46,039 nucleotides of DNA from assembly GCA_944392585.1 (NCBI GenBank), contig CALXXA010000046.1, forward strand, positions 1 to 46,039, read 5' to 3'. Made by a program: the position numbers and the translations under genes. Shown in pieces: positions 3,682 to 8,430 of the stretch (the first letter of the stretch is position 1; every line of letters starts with the position of its first letter). This stretch comes from an uncultured Alphaproteobacteria bacterium (GTDB taxonomy: Bacteria > Pseudomonadota > Alphaproteobacteria > CAAHEQ01 > UBA3637). The notes under the pieces were generated by a model, which saw only the letters and a list, made by a program, of their open reading frames with translations, was not told where the DNA came from and made no database searches.

Positions 3682-4077
3682 CTAAATATTTGTTAGTTTT
3701 AATAAACGATCTATCATCTCTTGATATTCTTCCGGCGTTAACATTTGTATCGAAAAAAATGACAATAAATTATATCCCGCAGAAAAAAGTGTTAACATCT
3801 TAGCTACCCATGGGAAAAGTTTTTTCCCTGTGTCTTTCTCGTAATAATTTGCTGATTTATATACTCCAACCGCTTGCCATAAAGATATTCCAAAAGAAAT
3901 TAAATAATAGTTCATCAAATATCTGTCAAGTTCTCTGATTTGATCCGAATAAAGTAAATTCAATATAACAAAAGCATAAATAAAGCTTATCAGAAAATTA
4001 ATCCCAATATAATTCCCCCAAAAACTTACTCGTAAAGAATATTCTCCTTGCCAATGTTTCTTAATATAACTTATCAT
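3682..4077 (-). CDS. Small multi-pass membrane protein, last gene of the coupling-protein operon
   Basis: I do not recognise a named family. The 131-residue protein begins MISYIKKHWQGEYSLRVSFW, an amphipathic opening seen in several proteobacterial inner-membrane proteins. Hydrophobic segments follow at about 22-45, 58-72 and 93-112, and the C-terminal tail is short and charged. Its ATG lies one base after the stop of the SUKH-like gene, whose end supplies an AGAGAGGA ribosome site, so translation is almost certainly coupled. Its place after a toxin/immunity-like pair makes a second immunity protein or a membrane partner of the ATPase possible. Both ideas are inference. Confidence 0.7.
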   Translation of the reverse strand: MISYIKKHWQGEYSLRVSFWGNYIGINFLISFIYAFVILNLLYSDQIRELDRYLMNYYLISFGISLWQAVGVYKSANYYEKDTGKKLFPWVAKMLTLFSAGYNLLSFFSIQMLTPEEYQEMIDRLLKLTNI

Positions 4078-4078
4078 C

Positions 4079-4540
4079 TTAATCCTCTCTTATTTTTGCT
4101 TGCACAATTGCTTCTGAAAATAAATATATCAAATCAAAAAAACGCGGTAAACTTAATTCTGTTTGTAAATCTATTTTATCCACTAATTGATATGTTTTTT
4201 CTTTTGAATTATACACAATTAAATCTTCTTCAACATTTCCCAATACTAAAAAATTCTTTCCTCTTTTACGTTCTAAATAATCCATATTAACTTCTAGCAA
4301 GCTAGGAAGAGTATACCCTAGAGAATCCCTTTTGTGAGAATAAACTCCATACACCTGCATTCCATTCCAAAGCATCCCATCTGTTAATGTTAAAAATTGA
4401 GCGTAATCCGCCGGTAAATTAGGCAACTTACGACGCCCTAACGTTACTCTCAAAAGACGAATATCTTCTTCTTTCGCCGGATGAAACATTACAGCCCCGA
4501 CACGATAAATTTTTTTTAAAAGCTTTTTTAATAATCCCAT
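4079..4540 (-). CDS. SUKH (SMI1/KNR4, YrhA-like) family protein, possible immunity protein
   Basis: This 153-residue protein has the SUKH pattern. LPADYAQFL (42-50) is followed by TDGMLWNGMQVYG (53-65), a conserved Asn within LLEVN (85), FLVLGNVEEDLIVYN (97-111), and a closing aromatic helix near RFFDLIYLFSEA. SUKH proteins of the YrhA type usually neutralise nuclease toxins encoded next to them. Here the gene lies 2 bases after an HNH-like gene, exactly the expected arrangement. A basic, hydrophobic N-terminus (KKLLKKIYRV) precedes the domain. The family call is from motif reading; the immunity role is inferred from the neighbour. Confidence 0.75.
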   Translation of the reverse strand: MGLLKKLLKKIYRVGAVMFHPAKEEDIRLLRVTLGRRKLPNLPADYAQFLTLTDGMLWNGMQVYGVYSHKRDSLGYTLPSLLEVNMDYLERKRGKNFLVLGNVEEDLIVYNSKEKTYQLVDKIDLQTELSLPRFFDLIYLFSEAIVQAKIRED

Positions 4541-4542
4541 TT

Positions 4543-5151
4543 TTATCGTCCTGGCATGTTTTTTTGCGCCAAAGTTTTAAAGGTACTTTCTGAGAAACCA
4601 GCATAAACACTTCTATCGTGTTTCCCTTTCCCCCCTGATCCTGTATACATTGTCAACGGAATATAAATTTTCCCCGTCGGGACAGGAATATACATCTTCA
4701 ATGGGCGCATATTGATATCCATTCCTTCCATCTGCATGTCTATAAATTTATGGATATCTTCATGAAAAGGATAATTCTGTATTAAAACCATATTAGAAAA
4801 ATCTACCTGCCCTGTATAATCAAAGGGAATTTTTAAGTGAACATTAAAATTTTCCGGAATTATTCCTTTTTTAAAATAAAAAATATTATCTTCACTCATT
4901 CCCGCCGATCGAAGATCATTTACATAATTATATGATAAATAGCGTAAAAAATCTTTTTTTATTCGCTTGTATTGTTTACGTAAATTAACTTTTTCCAAGA
5001 CAGTCAATGGATATGCCGTTGCTTCTACCAAATCCATTCCTGGAAAGTTCATTTGCTGAAACTTTGTTTCCCAATAAGCTACATCATAGCGCATTTCATC
5101 TGTAACCAAGATAGAAGAACGTTTCGGTGAATTTAAAAAAAATGTCTCCAT
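4543..5151 (-). CDS. HNH/colicin-like nuclease-fold protein with altered active site
   Basis: The central part of this 202-residue protein matches the beta-beta-alpha metal HNH toxin pattern: G-I-I-P near 96-99, then VHLKIPF (104-110), an Asn at 120 (DFSNMVLI), and the metal-binding HxxxH at H130 and H134 (FHEDIH). It closes with a PVPTGKIYIP segment (156-165) like that of HNH toxins carried by polymorphic toxin proteins. Such enzymes have VHHK; here the second His, the expected general base, is Leu106, read directly as codon TTA. The N-terminal 90 residues look helical and charged. The gene starts 3 bases after the coupling ATPase stop, with a GGAGAG ribosome site inside that gene. It may be an inactive nuclease used as an adaptor, or a diverged toxin. 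Confidence 0.72.
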   Translation of the reverse strand: METFFLNSPKRSSILVTDEMRYDVAYWETKFQQMNFPGMDLVEATAYPLTVLEKVNLRKQYKRIKKDFLRYLSYNYVNDLRSAGMSEDNIFYFKKGIIPENFNVHLKIPFDYTGQVDFSNMVLIQNYPFHEDIHKFIDMQMEGMDINMRPLKMYIPVPTGKIYIPLTMYTGSGGKGKHDRSVYAGFSESTFKTLAQKNMPGR

Positions 5152-5154
5152 TTT

Positions 5155-7320
5155 TTAACTCTCCAGTTCTTCTAACTCTTCATCAAGTGTACTTGCTAAT
5201 ACTTTCAAATCTGTGTTCTCACGCTGTGCCACAATCCAATAAGGAACAAATGGAGCGGGCGGTATAGAACATTTCTTTTTCATTGATTTATCTAAAAAAT
5301 ACCGTGGAGAATCTGCCAAGATAGGTCTATTTAAAAAGCCTTGCATAATAACATATTGTTTTAACTTATCCAAACTCATCATATCAGAAGCTCCGACAAC
5401 AGATTGAGCTTGTAATGATTTAGACACATTTTGCGTCATACTCGGATTTATCCCCAAAATACTTTGATTTGTGCTATACGAAACAGATATAGCTGTTTTA
5501 GTCCCAATCATTTTTTCAAATCTTTGAGCTGTTTGTTCATTATTTTGAGCTAAAATAACTTTTGCCGCGGTTGTTGTAATGATTGTTTCCAAATCATCTT
5601 TTCCATATTGACCGGAAATTTGTCCTAAATCCTGCCCGATTAACAAATAAGAAACTTTTTGTCCCCGCCCTACAGCAGGACCATCTTTAACAGCAGACAG
5701 CTTAGGCATTTGAGGGAACTCATCCAAAACGAACAAAACTGGATAAGGCCCTGCTTTAATTCCATCCGAACCTACAAAATTAGGTGGGTTTGCAATTAAA
5801 AAAGAAGACATTAATTCAATAAACACACCCGTAATAACAGATAAGGCACGCGCATCAACTTGATTAACGGACAAGTAGACGGAAACAGGTTTCATTTCTC
5901 CGGTTATAGGATCTTTCATCCCTCTTAGATCTCTAAAAGTAAAATCAGAAAATCGAGTTCTTGCTACAACTGCTGAGTTCTTAAAAGGACTTATTCCTGT
6001 CAATGCCGTTGATAAAATGGATCCTCTTTCTTTATCCGGAGTGCTTGCCAACTGATTCATTTCCAACATAGCTCTTTGAGAATAGTGAAAGCGAGAGCAT
6101 TCTTGAACAGCAAAATCCAACACATCTCGCATAGGATCCGCTAAGGCCGCCATCTGATCTCCTTCATTTGCTCTACGTTTAATATCTGCCGCAATCTTCA
6201 TTTGAGTATCATTCAACCAATCTAAAATCATTGCAATACACGGTTCACATCCATGCCAATAATCCGGAAGCCCTTCCCAAGTCCCTACTGGAACATAATT
6301 ATCATATGTTAACGTTCCTTCTTCAATTGCTTGCATTGCGGACCTAGCACTTAAATCAGACATTTCTGCATAATACGTCATCAGAACTTTAGCATCTTCC
6401 TCATCAAAAGAATCATCCATCAAACGAGCCATAAAATAATCATTTGCCCGCGCTCTTTCACATTTACTGGAAATAAAATGCAAAAATCCAGACATTGCAT
6501 TTCGACCTGTTTTTGACCAGTGTGGATCTGCGCCTCCTTTCGGTTCTTCAACAATAACCGCCACCATCGAATCTATATACATATCCCGCGCAGGACCGGC
6601 AGGAGGCAAACAACTTTCTGATAATGGATTCCACGATGGATAATAAATTCCTTTAGAGGGGATATCTTCTTCTCCCCAATTAATAATAAAAACAGGACCT
6701 TGCGTTGCTCTATATCCAGATGTTGTAAAACATAATTCAGGTTTAGGGTCATTAACAATAATACTTAATCCAGGAGATTCTAAAATTGTCGGAACGACAA
6801 CTGCAGCCGTTTTACCTGTTCCCGGAGGAGCGACAACCAAAGCAGATAAAGTTTCCGGCATCTTAAGCAATTTTCCCTTAAATCGTCCTAAAACAATAAC
6901 GAAACCATCAAAAAGTTTCATCTTTTTGACATCCGCATAAGTAGCTAACCTGCCCCCACCAAGAGCTTTAACCATAAAATCATACGGATTTAAAACAGCT
7001 CCTATTGAAAAGACAATTCCCCACATCAGAAACGGGATTAAACCTATTAATAACCCTAACATCCCGAATTCTCTTAACATCAGATAAAACCATTTCACAT
7101 ATTGATCCCATATAAGAGAAGGATGCTTAACTGCCTCTGATAAATAATTCCAAACTTCGGCGACAGATTGTCTGCTTACTCCGTTTTCCAAAAGATGCCA
7201 GAAAGGAACAATTAAATATAAACTTAATATACAAAAACAAACTCCGATAAAAAACCATATTACCAAATACGAAATGGCATTATCTCTGTCTGCATATTCT
7301 CCCGGACGTTGTAAAACCAT
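5155..7320 (-). CDS. VirD4/TraG-type type IV coupling ATPase
   Basis: This 721-residue protein is a membrane-anchored hexameric-type ATPase that would recruit substrates (DNA or protein) to a type IV secretion channel. Two transmembrane segments lie at about 16-40 and 85-110. They are followed by the VirD4/TraG linker GGGRLATYADVKKM (121-134), Walker A APPGTGKT (164-171), an all-alpha-like insertion (about 280-430), Walker B VLFVLDEF (528-535) and the GQDLGQISGQYG segment (562-573). The tail is strongly acidic (about 704-720), as expected where adaptors dock. Catalytic motifs are intact. No relaxase, VirB or Dot/Icm channel gene is visible in the window, so its channel must lie elsewhere or be different. 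Confidence 0.88.
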   Translation of the reverse strand: MVLQRPGEYADRDNAISYLVIWFFIGVCFCILSLYLIVPFWHLLENGVSRQSVAEVWNYLSEAVKHPSLIWDQYVKWFYLMLREFGMLGLLIGLIPFLMWGIVFSIGAVLNPYDFMVKALGGGRLATYADVKKMKLFDGFVIVLGRFKGKLLKMPETLSALVVAPPGTGKTAAVVVPTILESPGLSIIVNDPKPELCFTTSGYRATQGPVFIINWGEEDIPSKGIYYPSWNPLSESCLPPAGPARDMYIDSMVAVIVEEPKGGADPHWSKTGRNAMSGFLHFISSKCERARANDYFMARLMDDSFDEEDAKVLMTYYAEMSDLSARSAMQAIEEGTLTYDNYVPVGTWEGLPDYWHGCEPCIAMILDWLNDTQMKIAADIKRRANEGDQMAALADPMRDVLDFAVQECSRFHYSQRAMLEMNQLASTPDKERGSILSTALTGISPFKNSAVVARTRFSDFTFRDLRGMKDPITGEMKPVSVYLSVNQVDARALSVITGVFIELMSSFLIANPPNFVGSDGIKAGPYPVLFVLDEFPQMPKLSAVKDGPAVGRGQKVSYLLIGQDLGQISGQYGKDDLETIITTTAAKVILAQNNEQTAQRFEKMIGTKTAISVSYSTNQSILGINPSMTQNVSKSLQAQSVVGASDMMSLDKLKQYVIMQGFLNRPILADSPRYFLDKSMKKKCSIPPAPFVPYWIVAQRENTDLKVLASTLDEELEELES

Positions 7321-7329
7321 TGTTTCCCT

Positions 7330-8430
7330 CTATTTAATCCCTAGAACCTGCTTAAGTTCATTTATTGTTTCTTGCGAAGCGGCCTCATTCTCCATCGAAA
7401 ATGCTGCCCCGAAAATAGGTAATTCATCAGGTTGGCCTAAATTCGTCCGACAAACAATAACTTTTAATTCCGCCCATGTTGCCATCATATCCTCCGCATT
7501 GATAATGGTTCCTTTGTCTTTAACTAAAATGCACTGTCCCGTCATTTGTATACCTGCTTTGTTCAAAAGAGCCAAAATCTTCTCTTGCTTTTGCATCAAT
7601 AATGTTACAGGAGACACTCTATGAGAACTTTCCGAATACCACAAAGGATCTTCATTATTAAATCTTTCTTCGTCAGCCAACCATTCTCCATCTTCCGAAT
7701 CTTTTTGGATAAAATAAATTTTATCTTTGGCTATTGCTAACCAATCTATTTGAATGTCCCCAACGACGACGTCTGCCAGAACTTGGCACCCTGTTTCTTG
7801 CATAATTTTGTTAAGATCTTCAACAACAGGTTCTTTTGGTTCTTCCGGTAAATTTAAAGACATAAAGTCTTCATTTTCTTCTTCCCGATCAAATGGAGTC
7901 TCTGCATTAACCCCAAAGTCATCTCTTGTTCTCTCAGACGGATAAAGCGATTTTCCTCCTGCTTTATTGTCTTCTTCAATCATAAAGTTATCGGTTTTTA
8001 AAAGATCTGATGTCTTTTGAACTGAATGACTGAAAGTATTTGAAATAGGTTTAGGTCTTGTTTCTTTATGCGAACGTTTCTTAGGAACACGAATTTTACG
8101 TTCCCTTTTTTTCGCATCTGCTTCCTTATTATAAATTAAATTCCAAAATAGTTTCTCTTTTATACGTTTATATGGAATAGTCATCAAGACACAATATCCT
8201 ATAACCCATATAGGTATCATTAAAAACAAAGAAATAACAAATGTCCAATAGTACGTCCCTTGAATAACCCATCCATCATACCACCATTGTTGAATAATGT
8301 ATCGCCAATGCCATCCATAAAAGATATGGAAACTCCAATTTGTTACTAAAAACCAATTAAAGCAATAAAAATAAATAAGTGTCCAAATAACAAAAATAAA
8401 TGTGTTTCGCCCAAGTAATTTTAATGTCAT
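7330..8430 (-). CDS. Two-TM membrane protein with degenerate NERD-like C-terminal domain
   Basis: This 366-residue protein has two transmembrane helices (about 10-30 and 63-85) with an unusually Trp/Tyr-rich periplasmic loop between them. A long charged linker follows (about 100-205), then a C-terminal domain (about 210-330) whose pattern recalls the nuclease-related NERD fold: a leading beta hairpin, IDW (228-230), YFIQKDSEDGEW (239-250), then a helix and a QCILVKD strand. NERD enzymes have a catalytic E-x-K where this protein has Gln242 and Asp244, so it looks inactive. It is the first gene of the operon, 9 bases before the coupling ATPase, with a good AAAAGG ribosome site. Its layout parallels two-TM partners of coupling ATPases (DotM/TrbA), but I see no sequence match to them. 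Confidence 0.65.
   Translation of the reverse strand: MTLKLLGRNTFIFVIWTLIYFYCFNWFLVTNWSFHIFYGWHWRYIIQQWWYDGWVIQGTYYWTFVISLFLMIPIWVIGYCVLMTIPYKRIKEKLFWNLIYNKEADAKKRERKIRVPKKRSHKETRPKPISNTFSHSVQKTSDLLKTDNFMIEEDNKAGGKSLYPSERTRDDFGVNAETPFDREEENEDFMSLNLPEEPKEPVVEDLNKIMQETGCQVLADVVVGDIQIDWLAIAKDKIYFIQKDSEDGEWLADEERFNNEDPLWYSESSHRVSPVTLLMQKQEKILALLNKAGIQMTGQCILVKDKGTIINAEDMMATWAELKVIVCRTNLGQPDELPIFGAAFSMENEAASQETINELKQVLGIK

Follow-up and report, generated by a model that had tools for sequence, protein, structure and literature searches.

The pseudo-HNH protein HNHL

The DNA analysed here (the window, 46,039 nucleotides) comprises positions 1 to 46,039 of contig CALXXA010000046.1 from an uncultured member of the Alphaproteobacteria (assembly GCA_944392585.1). 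At 4543..5151, on the minus strand, it carries a gene for a pseudo-HNH protein, which we call HNHL. The gene stands between those of a type IV coupling ATPase and an immunity-type protein, and this placement raises a question: what does an HNH protein that lacks its general-base histidine do beside a secretion ATPase? Because Pfam and NCBIfam scans of the 202-residue protein recognised no domain in it, including any N-terminal delivery domain, the assignment of an HNH motif required proof. The features of the gene are as follows.

5151 down to 4543, minus strand: HNHL, pseudo-HNH protein (ATG start, 202 amino acids)
4839-4837, minus strand: codon of His105, read out in frame and aligned to the first His of the HNH profile
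4836-4834, minus strand: codon TTA of Leu106, at the general-base position
4794-4792, minus strand: codon of Asn120, kept in every homologue
4764-4762, minus strand: codon of His130, a predicted metal ligand
4752-4750, minus strand: codon of His134, a predicted metal ligand
4546..4650, minus strand: C-terminal tail (TGSGGKGKHDRSV...MPGR), approximately residues 168-202, a candidate binding segment

The order of these residues agrees with the HNH motif. A preliminary description of this DNA had placed His105, Asn120, His130 and His134 at these positions without giving the strand, and had read the second His of the usual His-His pair as Leu106. The minus-strand frame bears out the former claim; the frame and the profile alignment together bear out the latter. 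Most orthologues also retain the four residues, and in most lineages a structural metal is presumably still bound at the site of three His and one Asn. The C-terminal tail, which was modelled with low confidence, is kept in most HNHLs that lie in operons of the present type (cassette members) and is missing from the stand-alone HNH proteins that were compared.

Homology to active HNH domains was apparent when profiles were compared. The profile of the cassette members matched that of homologues containing the His-His pair (HH) with a probability of 99.8% (E 3.8e-30, 131 columns); in this alignment, the first His corresponds to His105 and the second to Leu106. Searched against the PDB, a profile of both groups (HH paralogues included) matched the Cas8f-HNH domain in the same register (E 7e-5) and pyocin AP41 (E 0.003). 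The cassette-only profile yielded weak matches alone, among them the pyocin AP41 DNase (E 0.7). The beta-beta-alpha metal fold, for which the preliminary description had proposed inspecting a predicted structure, is present in an AlphaFold model of HNHL built from a 37-row alignment: strands 102-106 and 121-125 are followed by a helix at 126-140, and the mean predicted local distance difference test score (pLDDT) is approximately 92-95 in 10-residue blocks of this unit.

The general-base position in homologues

Our homologue set consisted of 71 distinct domains, 45 of them in cassettes with NERD-like, VirD4 and SUKH genes and 26 outside (stand-alone paralogues). Counted as sequences and not as evolutionary events, the cassette members have Leu (30), Ile (8), Phe (4), Val (1), Met (1) or Gln (1) at position 106, and His in 0 of 45. 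The His-His pair is found in 25 of the 26 stand-alone domains; the exception, with Arg, is the N-terminal domain of a protein that has two HNH units in tandem. Across the 71 domains, the division between His and non-His at this position tracks genomic context. A two-HNH protein was observed at L105:4141-5658, flanked by an HNH gene and a SUKH gene; its first domain is degenerate (Ile-Arg-Arg) and its second has His-His.

The preliminary description had argued for a retained fold with a changed function and had suggested aligning close homologues. No orthologue proved to have His-His, and the view is supported by the fixed non-His residue at 106 together with the predicted beta-beta-alpha fold. 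A one-off mutation at Leu106 is ruled out, as the cassette members of different species and families all have a non-His residue there; the alignment thus indicates that the loss of the general base is fixed in the cassette HNHLs. In a tree built without the long-branch rows and the motif columns, the cassette members that were left (44) formed one side of a branch (Shimodaira-Hasegawa-like approximate likelihood ratio test, SH-aLRT, 99). With the long-branch rows included, three changes were counted, with two long branches placed doubtfully. A single loss of the base, kept afterwards, would account for these data most simply.

The ratio of nonsynonymous to synonymous substitution rates (dN/dS) of HNHL against near relatives was 0.04-0.09 where computable, with synonymous sites near saturation; such values indicate strong purifying selection on the gene. 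Within its own bacterial family, 41 of 42 genomes carry HNHL. The gene also occurs in several other families of Alphaproteobacteria, and in a phylum-wide draw of 399 genomes it was found in 2 only, both Alphaproteobacteria. The dN/dS values and the near-universal presence rule out a decaying pseudogene. In some members, most of the metal ligands are gone as well: the residues are Met/Ala/Glu in L051 (genome G073), Arg/Ser/Asp in L108-L110 (G110/G229/G399) and Ile/Ser/Phe in L111 (G322), and the NERD-like and SUKH neighbours remain in every case. Since the gene stays beside its partners after the ligands have been lost, catalysis is very unlikely to be the job of HNHL.

The operon and its toxin relatives

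The neighbours of HNHL in the window are these.

7330..8430, minus strand: membrane-anchored NERD-like protein, 366 amino acids, PD-(D/E)XK-type fold
5155..7320, minus strand: VirD4/TraG-type type IV coupling ATPase, 721 amino acids (PF02534, E 1.3e-53)
4079..4540, minus strand: YrhA-family SUKH protein of immunity type, 153 amino acids (NF038335, E 2e-18, above the cut-off)
3682..4077, minus strand: small membrane protein, 131 amino acids, limited to close relatives and a single additional family

The last of these is probably optional to the operon. The other three and HNHL lie almost end to end in the order NERD-like, VirD4, HNHL, SUKH: the VirD4 stop is 3 nucleotides before the HNHL start, and the SUKH start is 2 nucleotides past the HNHL stop. 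Among loci with neighbours in reach, this order is kept across many families, at 27-100% identity to the HNHL of the window.

A NERD match was obtained for 8 of 24 members of the NERD-like family (best E 2.7e-5), and the nearest folds to a model of the protein are PD-(D/E)XK proteins. In the putative alignment of the E-x-K motif, the expected residues are replaced by a variable residue (Q242 in the window protein) and an invariant Asp244; for this reason, the NERD-like protein is probably a second inactive nuclease. An invariant motif, WLADEE..FN...PLW.SE..HR.SP, was noted further downstream in the family. Homology to DotM is ruled out, as DotM is all-helical (PMC5802825) and the model is PD-(D/E)XK-like. 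A role in anti-phage defence was dropped from consideration, since none of HNHL, SUKH and the NERD-like protein was matched in a PADLOC scan.

The genome to which the window belongs also carries VirB4, VirB9, VirB10, a VirB11-like ATPase (read from the sequence) and, by a weak match, a VirB2-like pilin. Its VirB10-type protein is 2254 amino acids long (L063:6289-13053, contig C25) and consists largely of degenerate repeats with the consensus G-x-V-x-(D/N)-x-x-G-x-x-I-G-x-V; open frames in relatives range from 1280 to 2838 amino acids, and no clear tandem array is visible in the DNA over most of the 2254-residue gene. At L064:7204-15946 (contig C19), genes for PilO, TcpQ, a secretin-like protein and a PilQ-like ATPase lie beside those of VirB4 and the VirB2-like pilin, and this locus is possibly a hybrid in which a VirB-type system is combined with the genes of a thin type IV pilus. 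The relaxase family PF03432 was not found in six genomes of the family that were tested; it is present in some other families, and the system may serve either conjugation or the export of effectors. A search for DotH/IcmK gave no match in 11 genomes, and the control genomes were equally silent.

Where, then, did HNHL come from? In a tblastn search of phages and plasmids, its best phage match was the C-terminal domain of an LXG polymorphic toxin from an SPbeta-like phage, a substrate of the type VII secretion system (32% identity, E 5e-13), covering HNHL residues 30-163. LXG toxin C-terminal domains of Bacillus and Cytobacillus were among the best plasmid matches too, and the same search matched enterobacterial HNH genes. 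All five of the LXG, phage and plasmid relatives that were examined have His-His; a YrhA-family protein is encoded by the next gene in four of them and beyond an insertion sequence (IS) element in the fifth. The SUKH protein of the window itself matches the YrhA partners of LXG toxins in Cytobacillus and Listeria, and of the 9 SUKH genes that related Alphaproteobacteria carry apart from the cassette, 6 adjoin an HH HNH gene. LXG toxin operons of B. subtilis, yokI-yokJ included, encode cytotoxic proteins that are neutralised by their partners (PMC8321402), and Imm-SUKH proteins are known partners of HNH toxins (PMC3482391). The LXG-HNH homology, the adjacent YrhA partners, the HNH/SUKH pairs in relatives and the known pairing of Imm-SUKH with HNH are the reasons for which, at the level of sequence, we regard the HNHL-SUKH pair as descended from, or sharing ancestry with, a toxin-immunity pair. 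The YokI toxin domain of the 3610 type probably differs from the HNHL-type domain; the idea that YokI of SPbeta carries an HNHL-type domain was dropped, as SPBc2 YokI shares the N-terminal 379 residues only and ends in a different C-terminal domain.

Further HNH and SUKH genes were seen in the course of these searches. In the same genome, L044:643-1125 (contig C38) encodes a stand-alone HNH protein of 160 amino acids with intact His-His, beside recG; short HNHs resembling it match in many relatives. A second YrhA/SUKH copy (L134:6271-6771, contig C41) sits immediately upstream of queA and has no accompanying HNH gene, and the same spot in genome G092 (L045) holds two HH HNH genes, a SUKH gene and then queA. 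At the queA spot of the window's own genome, the nuclease seems to have been lost while the immunity gene was kept. Finally, on a conjugative plasmid of the IncHI2A type, an HNH-YrhA pair with His-His (L146:2264-3355) adjoins a TraG-N gene. HNH matches of this type occur on hundreds of enterobacterial plasmids, most of them predicted to be conjugative, and the pair is possibly an independent link of HNH-YrhA to type IV systems.

Proposed role and comparison with known systems

Taken together, the sequence comparisons point to four properties of HNHL: toxin homology, fixed loss of the base, a conserved operon with VirD4, and purifying selection. The reading that we favour, and consider reasonably probable, is that HNHL is a dead descendant of an HNH toxin that was co-opted into a type IV coupling complex, together with its YrhA/SUKH partner, and serves there as an accessory subunit. 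The retention of a dead nuclease and an immunity protein in the operon of a coupling ATPase suggests a weapon recycled as a machine part. The preliminary description had offered an adaptor and an immunity-tolerated inactive toxin as alternatives; with SUKH downstream, VirD4 before HNHL and antibacterial toxins as the active relatives, the two become parts of one history. An HNH toxin would have lost its general base and joined the coupling operon together with its immunity partner. SUKH may bind the dead HNHL as a live toxin would be bound, and the pair could dock on VirD4, the NERD-like membrane protein or both, where it would help to recruit, sort or gate substrates. A more specific version, which we think doubtful, is that the disarmed HNH and YrhA pair, built into the complex beside the dead NERD-like nuclease, mimics the live pairs of related bacteria, and that the coupling ATPase thereby recognises immunity-bound toxin cargo.

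Several observations weigh against the recruitment of HNHL to a coupling complex. In G110, G229, G399 and G322, the NERD-HNHL-SUKH trio is not adjacent to VirD4 (G110, G399 and G322 have a VirD4 orthologue at another locus), and contact with VirD4 is therefore not implied there. The loss of activity is read in most members from one residue. The top Foldseek matches of the HNHL model in the PDB are HNH proteins, but their E-values are weak (0.7-0.9) because the HNH motif is short. The structure models are of single chains only, and we infer the contacts within the complex. Lastly, the gene in the icmJ position of plasmid pOXA-48, assumed to be that of the coupling subunit Orf38, gave only a weak PHD-finger match and no HNH match, and did not retrieve DotN from the PDB; homology of HNHL to DotN by way of this gene is thus not established.

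Other functions must be considered for a protein with this ancestry. An ordinary polymorphic toxin is ruled out by the missing delivery domain, the core-gene distribution and the loss of the base. HNHL could be an effector that the type IV secretion system exports and that acts by binding, not cutting, nucleic acid or protein; SUKH would then serve it as a chaperone or as an immunity protein. Effector genes are frequently located near secretion genes, HNH/YrhA genes are toxin/immunity pairs in other organisms, and a secretion signal could reside in the C-terminal tail, which is flexible and conserved. This proposal is nonetheless unlikely: unlike typical, variable effectors, HNHL is a single-copy core gene under strong purifying selection, with a fixed placement between VirD4 and SUKH, and most of its former active site is gone in some lineages.

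The immunity-family gene that adjoins HNHL, and the live stand-alone HNH/YrhA pairs in related genomes (L045, L056, L103, L105, L139, L140), would also fit a toxin that has lost its activity and whose sole use is that of an immunity decoy or sponge, or one that survives as a vestige made tolerable by the immunity gene. We hold this to be quite improbable, as a dN/dS of approximately 0.05 and near-universal presence exclude decay, and a decoy would have no need to be kept so strictly beside VirD4 and the NERD-like protein. Could HNHL still cut, with a residue such as Lys107 or Tyr112 as its base or through substrate-assisted catalysis? Both of these residues are nearly invariant, and the metal-ligand set and the Asn are retained in most members. 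However, Lys is equally common at 107 in the HH paralogues and is therefore not a replacement base; position 106 drifts among Leu, Ile, Val, Phe, Met and Gln, as befits a core position free of chemistry; and several cassette members keep the operon without most of the metal ligands. An active nuclease is accordingly the account to which we give very little credence.

Taken singly, dead HNH domains, SUKH immunity and accessory subunits of coupling complexes are already known; no description of an HNHL-SUKH-NERD-VirD4 coupling operon was found in the open-access subset of the literature. The choice of cargo by type IV coupling ATPases has been detailed for few systems, such as Dot/Icm. The present operon suggests that accessory sets of another kind exist, assembled from conflict proteins put to new use (here a pair of dead nucleases plus an immunity protein). 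It also supplies concrete candidate subunits of a secretion system that has received little study, in uncultured Alphaproteobacteria that come largely from the gut.

Among known systems, DotN (IcmJ), from the coupling complex of Legionella, and the pOXA-48 protein Orf38 resemble HNHL as small, soluble proteins that work with a VirD4-family ATPase. DotN binds the tail of DotL (PMC7280309), and a subunit of the DotN/Orf38 type has been modelled with Zn (PMC12365149); by analogy, DotN would be the closest functional counterpart of HNHL in the literature. The surroundings differ, in that Dot/Icm has the all-helical DotM where the HNHL operon has a NERD-like fold, and the VirB/VirD4-like proteins accompanying HNHL are not of the Dot/Icm type. 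The LXG toxins (that of the yokI locus of Bacillus phage SPR, and those of Cytobacillus) share with HNHL a homologous HNH domain and an adjacent or close partner of the YrhA family (NF038335). They have His-His, an LXG delivery domain and a patchy distribution, whereas HNHL has His-Leu, no delivery domain and the status of a core gene beside VirD4. Colicin and pyocin HNH DNases possess the beta-beta-alpha-metal motif in the register of HNHL (pyocin AP41), but HNHL lacks their general-base His, and the colicin immunity proteins have the Im fold in place of SUKH. The C-terminal GHH domain of teneurin is, like HNHL, an inactive HNH of bacterial toxin origin put to a new function (PMC3482391). Unlike HNHL, teneurin is an animal cell-surface protein that has lost the conserved histidines and has neither an immunity partner nor a secretion ATPase; HNHL would be a comparable case of toxin domestication in bacteria.
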